64,000 nucleotides of DNA, from positions 124,001 through 188,000 of the forward strand of contig JAACPE010000002.1 in NCBI GenBank assembly GCA_009995595.1. Reading direction: 5' to 3'. Each line of letters begins with the position of its first letter. The stretch's first letter is position 1. The notes under the pieces are model-generated. The model did no database searches and was not told where the DNA came from. It saw only the letters and a program-made list of their open reading frames with translations. A program made the translations under genes and the position numbers. Source of the stretch: Alphaproteobacteria bacterium. Lineage in GTDB: Bacteria > Pseudomonadota > Alphaproteobacteria > Micavibrionales > Micavibrionaceae. Below are positions 54,748-64,000 of this stretch, piece by piece.

Positions 54748-55657
54748 CGGCGCTTACCATTGGGATTGAAAGATCATTCAAATCATCAACTTTAAGTGTT
54801 TTGACGCAAGGCCCTTTGGGCGCATGGCGCACGGGGTTTGAATACTTGGAGAATAAAACAATAGTCGGGCAACCCGTTGGCGCTATTAAGTGCATGGGAC
54901 CTGTATCATTGCCAAGCGCAAAGAGCGCGCTGCGGGAAAGGACAGCAATCTGGTCAAGACTTGTCTGCCCCGTTAAATCAAGACAATCAGGGCATGCTTG
55001 TTTGATTTGCGCCGTTATCTCTCTCTCAGCGTCAGTCCCTAATAAAACTGATTGTATGCCTTGGTTACAAAGTTCTTTACAAATTTTACCATATCTAATG
55101 GCAGGCCATCGCTTATAGGGATGTTGGGGCGCGCTACCTGCTATAATCAGGGCGTATTTTCCTCTAAGATTAAAATTTGATAGATCAGCCTGTATCCATT
55201 CAAGCGTGTCAATTTTGACATCATCAATGCCCGCAACTTTAAGGGTCATTTTATGACCGTCAAAGGCTTGCCCTGCTGTACGCTCTTTGCTGTTATTACG
55301 ATGTGATGCCCCTTTTGCAACGCCAGACCATTCCGGCTTTGGGTTAAATAGTTTGAAATAAAAGGACGTACGGTCATTGTTTTGGAGGTCATAGACACGT
55401 AAAAATTGGCCCTCATTAAACTGCTTTTTTAAACTACGCCATTTTGAAAATTCAAAAAATCTTGGTTTTTCATCAATCCATATCTCGTCACAATGTCCTG
55501 ATTTTTGAACTAATGCTTCAAAAGGTTTGGTTGTTAAAAGCGTTATTTTTGCATCAGGATGGTGCGAGCGTATGGCCTGCATAGGGCCAAGTGCCTGTAT
55601 AAAATCGCCCAATGCGCCAAGCTTAATAATAAGGATATTTTCTTTATTTGGCGGCAT
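54719..55657 (-). CDS. Glycosyltransferase family 9 (heptosyltransferase-like)
   Basis: Probable LPS-core or cell-envelope sugar transferase. ILIIKLGALGDFIQALGPMQAIR at the N-terminus and GNDTGPMHLIAPTGCPTIVLFS are the GT9 signatures. I start at 55657 (MPPNKENI), overlapping the upstream glycosyltransferase gene by 14 bases; the open frame extends 26 codons earlier. About 312 residues. Donor and acceptor sugars cannot be assigned. Confidence 0.88.
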   Translation of the reverse strand: MPPNKENILIIKLGALGDFIQALGPMQAIRSHHPDAKITLLTTKPFEALVQKSGHCDEIWIDEKPRFFEFSKWRSLKKQFNEGQFLRVYDLQNNDRTSFYFKLFNPKPEWSGVAKGASHRNNSKERTAGQAFDGHKMTLKVAGIDDVKIDTLEWIQADLSNFNLRGKYALIIAGSAPQHPYKRWPAIRYGKICKELCNQGIQSVLLGTDAEREITAQIKQACPDCLDLTGQTSLDQIAVLSRSALFALGNDTGPMHLIAPTGCPTIVLFSKYSNPVRHAPKGPCVKTLKVDDLNDLSIPMVSAAISEYLPKQ

Positions 55658-56858
55658 AGGTTTGAGCGTGCTGCGCTTGTTGTGAATTAAAGGAAGGCAC
55701 ATTATATTTTTCTTGCAATAATTCTGCGTACACATTCAACGTTTCATCAACCATTCTCTCACGTGTGAAATTATTTGCAATATGTGCCATAGCGCGGGTT
55801 GCTAAAATAGCGCGTTGATTATCGTTAAGGCGAAGGGCTTCTTCGATAGCATTAGCAAGCGCGCTTGAGTCATTTGGTTCAATCAGCCACCCTGTCTCAT
55901 TTTTAATAACCGTTTCCATAGCACCGCCGTGATTAGTCGCAATGATAGGGCGACCCATAGCTTGGGCTTCAATCGGAATGCGGCCAAAGCCCTCAGGGTC
56001 TGTTGAAGCACTGACGACAACAGCCGAGAGCATATAGACCGCGGGCATATCATTACAGTGATCGACAATACGAATTTGGCCACCAAGATTTTTTTCTTTA
56101 ATTGCTTGTTCAAGTTCTTCGCGGTACCCGGTCCGCCCTTGATCTGACCCCAGTAAAACACAAAAGACATCCTTATTTTTTATCTTTGCCACAGCGTCTA
56201 TTAAAACATGATGCCCCTTCCAGCGGGTGAGACGGCCAGGTAGAAGAATGATATTTGCCCCTTCTGGAAGGCGCCATTCTGAAGAAATTTTAATCATCTG
56301 TGCAGGGCGTACTATAGTTGGATGAAATTTATCGAGGGCAACGCCGCGATGAATAAGGCGGATATTACGCTGGTCGATATCATAATTATCTAAAAGATAA
56401 TTTGCTACATGGTTTGAAATGGCAATAACACGCTCACCGCGGGCAATTACTGAGTTATAAAGTCGTTTAGCTTTGCTATTAATATTATAAGGGGCATGGC
56501 AGGTTGTCATGTATCGCGCATTTGTTTTTTTGCACGCTTTTATCGCTGACCACGCTGGGGCGCGGCTGCGTACGTGTACGATATCGACGTTATGTTGTAT
56601 AATAAGCTTTCGAAGTCGTTTTATATTACTCCATATGGTCAGGGGATTTTTGCTATGAACAGGTAAATCTATATGAAGAGCGCCAATTCGGTTTAGCTCA
56701 TGCACGCGCGAGCCACCATGAGAAACAACAATTGCTTTTGAGCCTGAGCGTACTAACTCTGCGGCAACATCAAGGCATCCTTGTTCGGCGCCGCCCGGGC
56801 CGAGCTCAGGGATAATCTGCATGATGACAGGGATTTGGGGCATTTGATTTTGAGGCAT
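55644..56858 (-). CDS. Glycosyltransferase family 4
   Basis: A 404-residue GT-B enzyme. PELGPGGAEQGCLDVAAEL near the N-terminus, LLPGRLTRWKGHHVLIDAVA and EGFGRIPIEAQAMGRPIIAT (the E-x7-E motif) are typical of GT4 transferases of LPS or exopolysaccharide synthesis. It is cotranscribed with the GT9 gene (14-base overlap). No other polysaccharide genes are adjacent, so the product is unclear. Confidence 0.9.
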   Translation of the reverse strand: MPQNQMPQIPVIMQIIPELGPGGAEQGCLDVAAELVRSGSKAIVVSHGGSRVHELNRIGALHIDLPVHSKNPLTIWSNIKRLRKLIIQHNVDIVHVRSRAPAWSAIKACKKTNARYMTTCHAPYNINSKAKRLYNSVIARGERVIAISNHVANYLLDNYDIDQRNIRLIHRGVALDKFHPTIVRPAQMIKISSEWRLPEGANIILLPGRLTRWKGHHVLIDAVAKIKNKDVFCVLLGSDQGRTGYREELEQAIKEKNLGGQIRIVDHCNDMPAVYMLSAVVVSASTDPEGFGRIPIEAQAMGRPIIATNHGGAMETVIKNETGWLIEPNDSSALANAIEEALRLNDNQRAILATRAMAHIANNFTRERMVDETLNVYAELLQEKYNVPSFNSQQAQHAQTYAAK

Positions 56859-58220: not shown

Positions 58221-58310
58221 GGACAGGTGGCCGAGTGGCTTAAGGCGCACGCTTGGAAAGCGTGTTAGGGTTCATCCCCTACGCGGGTTCGAATCCCGCT
58301 CTGTCCGCCA
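58221..58310 (+). tRNA. tRNA-Ser(GGA)
   Basis: A 90-base class II tRNA. Acceptor stem GGACAGG pairs with TCTGTCC; the anticodon loop TTGGAAA has GGA (58255-58257), reading UCC and UCU serine codons. A long variable arm and T-loop GTTCGAATC follow, and the 3' CCA is encoded. The last 32 bases overlap the end of the SulP open frame on the other strand. Confidence 0.97.
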
Positions 58311-59946
58311 TTCTTTCTTTTTTATCCATCACACTAGCATAATCGACGAGAATTCCGTAATTTGGGTCTTCAATAAGGTTTACTTCTACCATGTCTTTGG
58401 CTTGTTTGAGCAAAAGGACGCAATCAGGGCTGAGATGCACTAAATGTAGCTTTTTGCCTGCTTCTTGGTATTTAACAGCCATTGCATCAATTGCCTCTAA
58501 GGCAGAATGATCCCATACGCGCGCGCGGCTAAAATCAATTACGACATCATCTTCTTCGTCATTTTTGGGGTCAACTTCATCACGGAATTTAGAGATTGAG
58601 CCGAAGAATAAAGGGCCATGGAGCTTGTATACTTTATTGCCGTCCTCCTTGTTGTGCCAAACAGTCACCCAAAATTTATTCGCAGATTTCCATGCGTAAA
58701 CGAGAGCGGACACAATCACACCGATAATAACGGCGATTGCGAGGTCATAAGCAACAGTGATTGAGGTCACTAAAAAGATTACAAAGGCATCTTCTTTAGG
58801 GATTTTGGTTAAAATACCCATAGAGGCCCAGGCAAATGTCCCAATCACAACCATCATCATAAGGCCGGTTAATGCGGCCAGTGGAATCATTTCAATCCAG
58901 TTTGCAGCAAAGAGGATAAAAAATAGTAAAGTCATCGCGGCGGTAATTCCCGATAATCTGCCGCGCCCGCCAGATTTAATATTAATCATAGACTGCCCAA
59001 TCATAGCGCATCCGCCCATCGCCCCAAAAAAGCCACAGGTTGTATTGGCGAGGCCCTGGCCTATACATTCTTGGGATGTGCGCCCTCGTGTGTCTGTCAT
59101 TTCGTCGATGAGGGTAAGGGTCAGTAAACTTTCAATAAGCCCAATCGCGGCAAGAGTCAGGGCAACCGGGAATATAATAGTGAGAGTTTCATAGGTAAAA
59201 GGAACCATTGGGATATGAAACTGCGGCAGACCACCAGCAACACTGGCCAAATCACCGACGGTCTTTGTATCCAGATCAAGACCAATGACTAGTGCAGAAA
59301 CGGCCAAAATAGATACAAGCGGTGCTGGGAGCAATTTACCGAATTTAGGGATTTTTTGAAAAGCCCAGATAATAAGCATTGTCAAAAGCGTTAAGCCAAT
59401 CATGAGTTGCATTTCAGTGCCCTGCATCCAGTTTCCACTAAAAATAACATCAATGGCGCTGTGCCCCCCTTCGGAAGCGGCGCCCATCTCGTGACCTTCT
59501 TTATTACCCTTAAATTGTCCTAGTTGTGCGAGGAAGATCACAATAGCAAGGCCGTTTACGAAGCCGAGCATCACGGGATGAGGGACGAGCCGAATGAATT
59601 TACCCATATGGAAAAGGCCAGCTATGATTTGTATCAGCCCAGCAAGCAAGACAGCCGCGAATAAATATTCTACGCCGTAAAAGGAAACTATGCCAACCAT
59701 GACAACGGCCATTGCCCCTGTTGCCCCTGAAATCATACCGCTTCGCCCACCAAAAATTGATGTGATTAGGCCAACTATAAAGGCAGCATATAGCCCGACA
59801 AGCGGATCAACTTTTGCAACAAAAGCAAAAGCAATGGCCTCAGGTACTAGCGCCAGGGCTACAGTAATGCCTGATAGAATATCGGCTTTCGGGTCTGTTG
59901 TTAGGTGAAATTTTCTAACAAGGCGCGGGATAGTTTTTGCGGGCAT
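58279..59946 (-). CDS. SulP family anion transporter
   Basis: A 555-residue SLC26/SulP permease (sulphate, bicarbonate or other anion) with 10-14 hydrophobic segments and a C-terminal STAS domain (about residues 430-540; VVIDFSRARVWDHSALEAID). LVPEAIAFAFVAKVDPLVGLYAAF and the glycine-rich helices are typical. The last residues, ADRAGFEPA, are encoded antisense to the tRNA-Ser T-arm; such tails are common artefacts of reading past the true gene end, but here no earlier in-frame stop exists. Confidence 0.92.
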   Translation of the reverse strand: MPAKTIPRLVRKFHLTTDPKADILSGITVALALVPEAIAFAFVAKVDPLVGLYAAFIVGLITSIFGGRSGMISGATGAMAVVMVGIVSFYGVEYLFAAVLLAGLIQIIAGLFHMGKFIRLVPHPVMLGFVNGLAIVIFLAQLGQFKGNKEGHEMGAASEGGHSAIDVIFSGNWMQGTEMQLMIGLTLLTMLIIWAFQKIPKFGKLLPAPLVSILAVSALVIGLDLDTKTVGDLASVAGGLPQFHIPMVPFTYETLTIIFPVALTLAAIGLIESLLTLTLIDEMTDTRGRTSQECIGQGLANTTCGFFGAMGGCAMIGQSMINIKSGGRGRLSGITAAMTLLFFILFAANWIEMIPLAALTGLMMMVVIGTFAWASMGILTKIPKEDAFVIFLVTSITVAYDLAIAVIIGVIVSALVYAWKSANKFWVTVWHNKEDGNKVYKLHGPLFFGSISKFRDEVDPKNDEEDDVVIDFSRARVWDHSALEAIDAMAVKYQEAGKKLHLVHLSPDCVLLLKQAKDMVEVNLIEDPNYGILVDYASVMDKKERMADRAGFEPA

Positions 59947-61892: not shown

Positions 61893-62047
61893 AGGGAGTT
61901 ATAGCGATTTTTTTTGAAAACGGCAGATATATTTTTTCGGCAAAGATAGAAATAAAAATAATATTTTAAATCAATGTGTTACGTGTAAATTTTTTACATA
62001 ATTTGACAAAAATAAGGCAGATACGCAATGATTAAAAGGTAGCAAGT

Positions 62048-62062
62048 TTAAAACTTTATTAA
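62048..62062. promoter_or_regulatory. CtrA-box candidate before surface-fibre locus
   Basis: TTAA, AACTTTA, TTAA: an exact TTAA-N7-TTAA, ending 17 bases before the ATG at 62080, just ahead of a strong AGGAG ribosome-binding site. A TTGACA hexamer lies at 62003-62008. The region is AT-rich, so chance is a real alternative. Confidence 0.4.
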
Positions 62063-62079
62063 CTTTTAGGAGAACTATT

Positions 62080-62628
62080 ATGAGAAAGACTACAAAATTA
62101 GCCTTAACTTTAACTTGTGCAGCTGTGATGGGCTTTACTGCTGCGCCAGCTAAAGCAAATGACCTTATTAATTCATCAGTTAGTGGTTATGTCGGCGGGG
62201 ACATCACACAGAGCGTAAGTGGTTATGGAGCCAACGCAGATCTAAACGTTGGGTCTATTGATACAGAGTTTTCATATGGTCCAGGAGGTGCGTATCGTAA
62301 TTTAGAAGCAGAAGGTCGCGTTGGTGGGGATGTTACACAGATTGCTAGAACTGGTGGCGGTTGGGTATCCCCAGATTTTAAATTAGAGGCGCAAATTGGT
62401 AATATTAAAGCAACGGCAGCGACAAACAGCTATGCTTTTGGAGCAGTTGAAGGTGATATCACCCAAGTAGTGGATGGAGAATCATCTGCCGAACTTCATG
62501 TTGGTAGCATGATGACTGATAATGGTACTATTGAAAATAGCACCGCTATAGGTTTTGTAGGTGGTGATGTAACACAACGCGCAACAAATGGTGCGAAAGC
62601 ATCAGCCCGCGTAGGTTCATTAAGATAA
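62080..62628 (+). CDS. Secreted curlin-like repeat protein
   Basis: A 182-residue protein. The signal peptide ends AKA (residue 26). The mature chain has four imperfect repeats of about 37-43 residues built on G-x-V-[GE]-G-D-[IV]-T-Q, with the Asp at residues 41, 84, 126 and 163, each followed after 10-22 residues by a hVGS/IGN strand. Short beta strands rich in Gly, Ala, Thr and Asn with a conserved Gln resemble CsgA-type amyloid subunits and holdfast anchor proteins of Caulobacter. Strong AGGAG before the ATG suggests high production. An intrinsic terminator follows. No homologue family can be named with certainty. Confidence 0.72.
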   Translation: MRKTTKLALTLTCAAVMGFTAAPAKANDLINSSVSGYVGGDITQSVSGYGANADLNVGSIDTEFSYGPGGAYRNLEAEGRVGGDVTQIARTGGGWVSPDFKLEAQIGNIKATAATNSYAFGAVEGDITQVVDGESSAELHVGSMMTDNGTIENSTAIGFVGGDVTQRATNGAKASARVGSLR

Positions 62629-62641
62629 TAAAAGAATTAAG

Positions 62642-62672
62642 GCCCGAGAGTAAACCTCTCGGGCTTTCTTTT
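62642..62672 (+). terminator. Terminator inside the surface-fibre locus
   Basis: GCCCGAGAG (62642-62650), a five-base loop, CTCTCGGGC (62656-62664), then TTTCTTTT. A strong intrinsic terminator that would make the first gene's transcript much more abundant than the downstream genes, unless read through. Confidence 0.9.
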
Positions 62673-62698
62673 ACCCAAAATTAAAAAGTTAAGAAAAG

Positions 62699-62995
62699 AT
62701 GAAAAAAATAATATTAACAATTATATTATCTGCATACGCTGTCATACCTATAGCAGCGCATGCAAATGAAATGATTAACTCAAGCGCAGAGGGCTATATA
62801 GGTGGTGATATCGTACAATCTGCATCTGGGGCATCAACCAATGAGATTTTCGTGGGGTCGATTGTTAATGAATCTGGTCGTTCACTGAGAAATATTCATG
62901 TACAAGCCCATGTTGAAGGGGATATAGTTGTAAATACAAATAATGGTGCGCATTCACGAGTTTCTATAGGGTCATATATTCAAAAAAGACGATGA
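62699..62995 (+). CDS. Secreted curlin-like repeat protein, two repeats
   Basis: A 98-residue exported protein. The signal peptide ends HAN (about residue 22-23). The mature start EMINSSAEGYIGGDIVQSASG closely matches the first repeat of the upstream protein (DLINSSVSGYVGGDITQSVSG), and a second unit VEGDIVV...VSIGS follows. It is half the size, as expected for a minor or nucleating subunit. The stop overlaps the next ATG by four bases. The leading ribosome-binding site is weak (AAGAAAAG). Confidence 0.7.
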   Translation: MKKIILTIILSAYAVIPIAAHANEMINSSAEGYIGGDIVQSASGASTNEIFVGSIVNESGRSLRNIHVQAHVEGDIVVNTNNGAHSRVSIGSYIQKRR

Positions 62996-63306
62996 AAAAC
63001 GCTCTTCTTGCTTTAATATTACTAATACCATCCTATTCTGCGATTGCGCAGGATAAGCCGAATGCAGGTATAGAAAATCTCTATCGCGGTGTAAAAACAA
63101 ATGATTTAATAACTTTTCTTCCACCTCGTCTTGGGCAAGACTCTCTATTAAATAATAACAACGAAGATGGATTTTTTTCTAGGGATAACGGCTGCCCAAA
63201 TGAAATTTTAATTGGCTCTGTCGCTGAAGATTCGGGTATAAGAGGGTCTGTTGACATTGATGTCGTCATTGATAGTGATATTACTATTGTGTGTGGCGGC
63301 TTATAA
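62992..63306 (+). CDS. Small exported protein of the surface-fibre locus
   Basis: A 104-residue protein with a signal peptide ending IAQ (about residue 19). Most is Asn/Leu/Arg-rich and unlike the other two, but its last third, CPNEILIGSVAEDSG with VDIDVVIDSDITIVCGG, matches the unit NEIFVGSIVNESG with VEGDIVV in the preceding protein. Two cysteines (CPNE and VCGG) could form a disulphide. It overlaps the previous gene by four bases and is 12 bases before the lipoprotein. Function inferred as accessory subunit. Confidence 0.65.
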   Translation: MKNALLALILLIPSYSAIAQDKPNAGIENLYRGVKTNDLITFLPPRLGQDSLLNNNNEDGFFSRDNGCPNEILIGSVAEDSGIRGSVDIDVVIDSDITIVCGGL

Positions 63307-63318
63307 AAAGCCTTTTGA

Positions 63319-64000
63319 ATGAAATCTCTTGCTCAAAAATTTTCTACTATTTTGGTATCGCTCGCACTTACCGCATGTGCAGCGAACCCTCTACAAACCA
63401 AAGTTAAGCCCAAGAACGAACCAACTTATAACTTTACGCAGAGTTCTCAGGTCTTGTCTTGTGTAGGAAATTTTATTAACCTTGGCAATAAGCCGCCTGT
63501 TGATATTTTTATTAGCAGCATTCCTGATCACACTATCCCAACAATTGAGACAGGTTTTTTAACTAAAAATGCTATTATGATGGTGAACACGGCTTTTGAT
63601 CGCCTTCAAACAGAATTAGTGAGTATAGTTGGTAATGATGGGGGTATGAAAGATCGGCTTCAAGTTCAAGTTTTAGGGGCTTTTACAGAATTAAACCGCA
63701 CGACGCGCTCTAGTGCTGCAAGCGGTGAAGTTATTATTCCTGGTGGTTTTGAGTTAGAATTTGGAAATGATCAGGCCTATAACCATATCGCATTAGATTT
63801 AGCGCTTAGCTACAAAAATAGGATCGTTCCAGGAACAAGCACAAGTGTAAGTATCCAAATTGATGGAGGATCAGGAGATATTACCCTAAGTTACGACGAG
63901 GGCGATGAATTTGCCGCGATTGGCGCACTTGGTTTTTCTGGCCAAGAGGGTTTTCACTCTGCACAACGCTTGTTGGTTGAAACGGCTGTTGCAATAATGA
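63319..64000 (+). CDS. CsgG/HfaB-like outer-membrane lipoprotein, cut by window end
   Basis: The open frame runs from ATG 63319 through base 64000 (at least 227 residues). The signal peptide ends with lipobox LTAC (Cys20). Features resembling the CsgG fold: SIPDHTIPTIETGFLTKNAIMMV, VLGAFTELNRTT, NHIALDLALSY and FHSAQRLLVETA, matching the conserved strands and terminal helix of CsgG and HfaB. Such lipoproteins form secretion pores for curli or holdfast-anchor subunits. Its position directly after three small beta-motif exported proteins supports that role. The 3' end is missing. Confidence 0.75.
   Translation, partial: MKSLAQKFSTILVSLALTACAANPLQTKVKPKNEPTYNFTQSSQVLSCVGNFINLGNKPPVDIFISSIPDHTIPTIETGFLTKNAIMMVNTAFDRLQTELVSIVGNDGGMKDRLQVQVLGAFTELNRTTRSSAASGEVIIPGGFELEFGNDQAYNHIALDLALSYKNRIVPGTSTSVSIQIDGGSGDITLSYDEGDEFAAIGALGFSGQEGFHSAQRLLVETAVAIM

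Follow-up and report, generated by a model that had tools for sequence, protein, structure and literature searches.

Pores of the CsgG class are known from curli and from the holdfast anchor, and csgH is present in many alphaproteobacterial curli systems; the exporter of the Fap fibrils is a FapF-type barrel. As described in PMC3521004, the minimal curli repeat is X6QXGX2NX10, the CsgA of Enterobacteriales carries 4-5 repeats, CsgB is an internal homologue and CsgG is the exporter. The same source describes alphaproteobacterial curli systems without csgC, csgD and csgE, with about half of the genera also being without csgF. In the holdfast anchor, the targeting of the small exported anchor proteins is described as depending on HfaB, and HfaA as a CsgA-like protein forming SDS- and heat-resistant multimers (PMC6707917).

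Here we analysed a window of 64 kb (the whole stretch of DNA under study), taken from a 1.99-Mb genome, and found in it a cassette of four co-directional ORFs, which we named A, B, C and D. In its working, with a putative pore and small repeat clients, the cassette most likely resembles curli and the holdfast anchor, and by the tests that we ran it belongs to neither of them. We consider it probable that the four genes form a self-contained cassette for a surface fibre or adhesin, exported via an outer-membrane pore of the CsgG/HfaB class. What is new in it is the repeat family, which Pfam, NCBIfam and PHROGs do not recognise and which is paired here with a predicted CsgG-class pore; the kind of exporter was already known.

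Layout and distribution of the cassette

In the list of ORFs of the window, the cassette starts at position 62080. Gene A (62080..62628, + strand; 182 aa) encodes a predicted exported major repeat protein, gene B (62699..62995, +; 98 aa) a predicted exported minor repeat protein, and gene C (62992..63306, +; 104 aa), the start of which overlaps the end of B by 4 nt, a small predicted exported protein. Gene D (63319..64000, +; open at the window end) encodes a lipoprotein that we assign to the CsgG/HfaB class. By eye, A, B and C carry signal-peptide-like N-termini (AKA/ND, AHA/NE and AIA/QD, respectively) and the N-terminus of D carries the lipobox LTAC. No tandem repeats were found at the DNA level. 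Upstream of A, the region up to the divergent ABC-F gene (61893..62079, +) marks the edge of the cassette relative to the empty site described below. It contains a promoter-like TTGACA-18-AATGAT at 62003-62032, a weak signal, with 11 promoter-like sites counted against 8.8 expected.

An earlier sequence-only reading of this DNA had placed the rest of the locus past the window. This holds for the 3'-terminal 470 bases of D, whose stop lies at window coordinate 64470 (L001 3320-4471), 227 of its 383 aa being inside the window, and not for any further gene of the locus: D is followed on the opposite strand by an ArsC-like gene and then by a FAD oxidoreductase (names given by eye), and the locus therefore consists of the four genes A to D. 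The csg or hfa genes that the same reading proposed to look for beyond 64000 do not follow D.

A profile of D and a profile of A picked out the same four of 104 family genomes, in four of 39 genera. These carriers are the window's genome, G482, G473 and G018, all placed in this one family; in the window's own genus, one of the ten genomes of this set has the cassette. Searched with the window's D, the class gave 4 of 385 genomes and the relatives 2 of 58, in both cases including the window's own, and a contig-level scan for D gave one locus. The order A-B-C-D was constant in all four carriers, with flanking genes that differed on both sides each time. The proposal that a repeat protein, a smaller repeat paralogue, an accessory protein and a CsgG/HfaB-class lipoprotein make up one cassette was borne out by this conservation in 4/4 carriers.

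We compared the site of the cassette with nine other genomes of the genus. Seven were uninformative, six having other neighbours within the 1.5-kb flanks and one (G003) a paralogue only. In the same-genus genomes G009 (L060) and G001 (L061), the ArsC and ABC-F genes are adjacent, with few bases between them and without the cassette, and their ABC-F genes are the closest to that of the window (84% and 82%, respectively). In the window, 2.56 kb separate ArsC from ABC-F and hold the cassette, which runs on the other strand. The SulP gene farther out, on the far side, is kept in G009 and not in G001. A SulP-type transporter ORF of the window (58279-59946, - strand; name given by eye) is overlapped over 32 bases of its 3' end by a tRNA-Ser(GGA) gene (58221-58310, +). 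The comparison favours a gain of the cassette in the window's lineage, as this is simpler than two losses, and the cassette has apparently relocated between chromosomal sites. No recombinase was seen within it. Carriage by mobile elements was rejected, since no D relative was confirmed in viral contigs (a pattern scan gave 70 stretches, none of which held up) and none was found in plasmids or phages.

We call the host Micavibrio-like, and it may have a predatory life style; the carriers are relatives of bacteria whose living depends on adhesion to prey. For Micavibrio aeruginosavorus, an obligate epibiotic predatory life style and attachment to the prey are described (PMC3189940). In the titles and abstract starts of open-licence PMC articles we found no description of an A-B-C-D cassette, and our literature search gave nothing joining CsgG, DUF4384 and Alphaproteobacteria.

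Gene D and its relation to the holdfast anchor

All four D proteins matched the NCBIfam model HfaB (NF037935), with E values of 8.4e-5 for the window and 5.5e-4, 7.5e-5 and 5.7e-8 for the other three, and scores (21.9 bits for the window's D; 19.2, 22.0 and 32.3 for the others) far below the equivalog cut-off of 300 bits in every case. Moreover, hhalign aligned D with a profile of three HfaB proteins at 94.9% (E 4.4e-8, 233 columns); these are small alignments, on which relations that were not found gave 3.6% (C against a distant C') and 11% (distant repeat proteins). PF03783, the Pfam CsgG family (gathering threshold 20.8 bits), had no match in the window's genome, the full-length D of the window matched no Pfam family at E<=10, and the D proteins of G018, G482 and G473 gave no Pfam CsgG match. 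The sequence-only reading had called gene 4 a CsgG/HfaB-like lipoprotein and had named a miss at PF03783 as a result that would refute it; D does miss this profile, and it matches HfaB. This profile is a blunt test for D, because an HfaB protein passes it (59 bits) and the path from D to CsgG leads by way of HfaB alone. In addition, PF03783 is described as having a low specificity for the CsgG of curli, with 171 correct matches out of 601 (PMC3521004, Table 1).

When D, its wider relatives and HfaB were combined in one profile and this was run against the PDB, the five sequences obtained at E<=10 were all CsgG (E 2.5e-7 to 2e-6). Without the HfaB rows the same search reached CsgG only at E 0.58, and the link from D to CsgG therefore runs via HfaB. 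A PDB sequence search with D alone gave no CsgG match; together with the Pfam result, this led us to reject D as a direct match of CsgG. Cys20 (in the lipobox), Cys48 and Cys239 of D are invariant in 11 aligned proteins. The predicted model of D (pLDDT 33.5) was unusable for structure comparison. As D combines a significant match to a member of the CsgG/HfaB superfamily with a lipoprotein signal (the lipobox seen by eye), we place it, from its sequence, in the CsgG/HfaB class and not among the HfaB orthologues. The D of G482 (L012 7068-8459) is 463 aa long and exceeds the D proteins of the remaining carriers by 80-119 residues, mostly in its C-terminal part.

The Caulobacter HfaA-HfaB-HfaD genes, like the cassette, set a CsgG/HfaB-class lipoprotein beside small exported proteins. 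This raised the possibility of a holdfast-anchor analogue, in which A to D would hold an exopolysaccharide to the cell as a complex in the outer membrane, in the manner of the Caulobacter HfaABD, with no independent fibre. HfaB is indeed the sole named NCBIfam match of D, HfaA is described as CsgA-like and as forming SDS- and heat-resistant multimers (PMC6707917), and all four carriers encode a polysaccharide exporter of the Poly_export type, but exporters of this type are widespread and are located elsewhere in the carrier genomes. Two nearby genes would fit this reading: in G018 the cassette is followed by an acyltransferase-3-like gene (by eye), and in the window a glycosyltransferase-like gene (55644-56858) is found about 5 kb upstream; beyond these, no polysaccharide gene was seen by eye beside the four cassettes. 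The gene order also differs (HfaA-HfaB-HfaD in L017, L019 and L020, against A-B-C-D), and D lies far below the HfaB cut-off. The HfaA model (NF037934), which gave 137.5 and 76.3 bits with two real HfaA proteins, matched none of the A, B and C proteins of the four carriers (ten searched at E<=1, the A proteins of G482 and G473 at E<=0.1), and a search of the window's genome for HfaD (NF037936) gave no match, the Caulobacter control being positive. We therefore regard a holdfast-anchor analogue as unlikely. Separately, L023 and L024 (G293 and G060) each carry two partial HfaD-like matches about 0.7-1.2 kb apart, which suggests tandem HfaD-like genes.

The repeat proteins and the hairpin behind gene A

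Protein A is made of four units of about 36 aa at residues 32-74, 75-116, 117-153 and 154-182 (window 62173-62301, 62302-62427, 62428-62538 and 62539-62625, + strand) and has no Cys beyond residue 28. In the six-frame translation of the window (127,996 residues) there are five copies of the strict motif G-x-[VI]-x-G-D-[IV]-[TV]-Q, four in A and one in B, and none of the 20,000 sequences obtained by shuffling mature A contained it; the A proteins of the other three carriers have no copy of it. Over the 16 units of the four A proteins, conservation is highest at A-x-G-x-V...[IV]-x-Q and [VI]-G-S-I: two Gly occur in every unit, Val and Gln in 15/16 and Ala in 14/16. GD is not constant among the units and is missing from those of G473.

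The unit HMM was trained on A units and compared with 3,800 shuffled decoys, the best of which reached 11.6 bits. It recovers, by construction, four units in each of the four A proteins (160-190 bits), and because it was built from A units only the B scores are independent. All four B proteins matched it at 25-34 bits, above every decoy (24.8 bits for the window's B, a score reached by 0 of 3,800), and the A profile detected B in three of the four carrier genomes. The window's B has one clear unit at residues 28-65 (62780-62893) and a degenerate one at 66-98. The C proteins scored 2.7-3.9 bits, which is not significant, as 111-218 of the 3,800 decoys reach that. Since C aligns with B by hhalign over the segment GSI...D[IV] (83%, E 8.7e-6) but fails the unit HMM, it contains a half-unit at most; conserved over the four carriers are an LPPR segment and two Cys that flank this half-unit. 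The sequence-only reading had counted four, two and one shared units in A, B and C. The four of A are confirmed, the two of B become one strict and one degenerate unit, and C has no strict copy.

No family was named for the window's A, B and C in Pfam, NCBIfam or PHROGs beyond chance-level matches, and in Pfam and NCBIfam the same was true of A of G018 and of the B and C proteins from the remaining three carriers. The weak matches that we set aside as chance were SASP (0.13) and PgaA (0.019) for the window's A, BasB (0.12) for B of G482, and PorB (0.026) and Frtz (0.028) for A and B of G018. With regard to the curli accessory proteins CsgE and CsgH, the C proteins of the four carriers gave no Pfam match at E<=1, and a C profile gave no relevant match in the PDB at E<=10. 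The best reading of these scans is that the A-type repeat represents a new family, unrecognised by the three libraries.

The predicted model of A, obtained from a two-sequence alignment (mean pLDDT 72.2, pTM 0.73), is all-beta with about three strands per unit, and the fold of A is probably a beta-solenoid. Among the 106 Foldseek rows obtained with this model, the FapC and CsgA fibrils took the first two places, at scores that are not significant: no row reached E<=0.001, the best one, FapC, had an E value of 0.011, and the TM scores of the fibrils were 0.10-0.12. We take this resemblance as a hint only. The likeness to Fap lies in that first row; the exporters differ, being of the CsgG/HfaB class in the cassette and a FapF-type barrel in Fap.

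The gap between A and B (62629..62698, +) is 70-73 nt long in the four cassettes and contains a terminator-like hairpin, which in the window is formed by GCCCGAGAG..CTCTCGGGC at 62642-62664 and is followed by TTTCTTTT to 62672. When segments of 45 nt, sampled every third base across each cassette, were ranked by fold stability, the A-B gap came first in all four (rank 1 of 782, 752, 882 and 753). The hairpins are GC-rich and precede a T-rich tract, and their letters differ in each of the four genomes. Against dinucleotide shuffles, z was -5.56 for the window, -1.83 for G018 and -2.85 and -4.05 for the other two; the hairpin of G018 is weak, 11 of 200 shuffles being equally stable. A consensus terminator scan reported the window's hairpin for the - strand only, which argues against a terminator. 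Even with this result, the hairpin suggests a partial terminator that would raise A over B, C and D, an excess that one would expect for the major subunit of a fibre.

With comparably weak scores, the model of A is also similar to the adhesin domains of tapirins and to ice-binding proteins, and the repeat proteins might then be non-fibrous beta-solenoid adhesins or binding proteins, shown singly by way of D. We find this improbable, as a polymer accords better with a subunit of four units, its smaller paralogue and a hairpin by which A would be overproduced, although this argument is indirect. An ordinary divergent curli (Csg) operon is the least probable account, and a very remote one: the 4-5-unit major subunit, the short paralogous second subunit and the CsgG-class exporter of curli parallel the layout of the cassette, and csgC, csgD, csgE and, in about half of the genera, csgF are described as missing from alphaproteobacterial curli anyway (PMC3521004), but the curlin repeat (PF07012) and CsgF (PF10614) were found in none of the four carrier genomes, with positive E. 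coli controls for both, PF03783 was unmatched in the window's genome, and the unit of about 36 aa with its core A-x-G-x-V...[IV]-x-Q...VGSI is unlike X6QXGX2NX10, in agreement with the earlier observation that the repeat differs from that of CsgA.

Proposed working of the cassette and its wider relatives

In the fibre or adhesin cassette that we favour, D would be lipid-anchored at the outer membrane and oligomerise into a pore. The major protein A, the minor protein B and C would cross the inner membrane by their signal peptides and traverse D unfolded, the clients possibly being recognised via the similar mature N-terminus of A and B (AND-L/M-I type), a type from which the B of G473 departs (by eye). 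Outside the cell, A would fold as a beta-solenoid and stack into a filament, perhaps of amyloid character, which B would seed or cap, and C, with its half-unit and conserved Cys pair, would anchor the filament or guide its assembly. The hairpin behind A would let part of the transcription pass, giving many copies of A per B, C and D. The probable function of such a structure in Micavibrio-like bacteria would be attachment to prey or surfaces. If the fibre is real, the cassette would be a small natural system in which to study the minimal needs of CsgG-class export and nucleation, and a candidate prey-attachment organelle in Micavibrio-like predators. It would also hold a transcript-level device for setting subunit ratios, in which the position of the hairpin is kept while its letters change.

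D has wider relatives in the class. By hhalign, it aligned at 98.3% with three CsgG-like/DUF4384 proteins of other Alphaproteobacteria, which have a D-like N-terminal domain. A class-wide search with these three proteins gave 18 of 385 genomes at E<=1e-10, the CsgG-like part being covered in eight and the DUF4384 part alone in ten. Among the eight, a small repeat protein adjoins the pore gene in four (G153, G289, G353 and G402), and three of these (G153, G289 and G353, from three different families) also encode a C-like protein that shows the pattern C…GNV…G[DN][IV]; there the gene order is repeat protein, C-like, D-like. In the remaining four (G409, G058, G079 and G398), no repeat or C-like protein was seen beside the CsgG-like gene. 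The pattern for the C-like proteins was written after two distant ones; it then found the third, and missed the true C of G482. Since hhalign gave only 3.6% (E 0.012) for C against the distant C', we retain this likeness as a motif resemblance alone. The distant repeat proteins did not score as homologues of A: the unit HMM scores of four of them lie within the decoys (reached by 67 to 2,567 of 3,800), for the fifth, that of L007, no match was reported, and hhalign aligned signal peptides only. Unlike D, the CsgG-like/PG_binding_1/DUF4384 proteins carry PG-binding and DUF4384 domains, in both of those scanned, and no B was recognised in the CsgG-like/DUF4384 loci, whereas the cassette has one.

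With a repeat protein, a Cys-pair half-unit protein and a CsgG/HfaB-class pore as their common core, these loci and the cassette might together represent a further class of nucleation-type fibres beside curli, Hfa and Fap, present in several alphaproteobacterial families. The Micavibrio-type branch of that class, to which a minor subunit and a conserved partial terminator belong, would be a cassette that shifts between chromosomal sites and serves epibiotic predators in holding their prey. We put this forward as a tentative proposal, possible and yet less probable than its opposite.

Other genes were seen in the surroundings of the CsgG-like/DUF4384 genes. A caspase-like gene (by eye) lies near this gene in three of the eight relatives (L005/L014, L016 and L057, in G409, G153 and G079, respectively), and a Crp/Fnr-type regulator (by eye) in G409, G402 and G058. 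G402 also encodes two near-identical exported repeat proteins of two units each (L015 2992-3315 and 5163-5492), about 2 kb apart and upstream of its CsgG-like gene.
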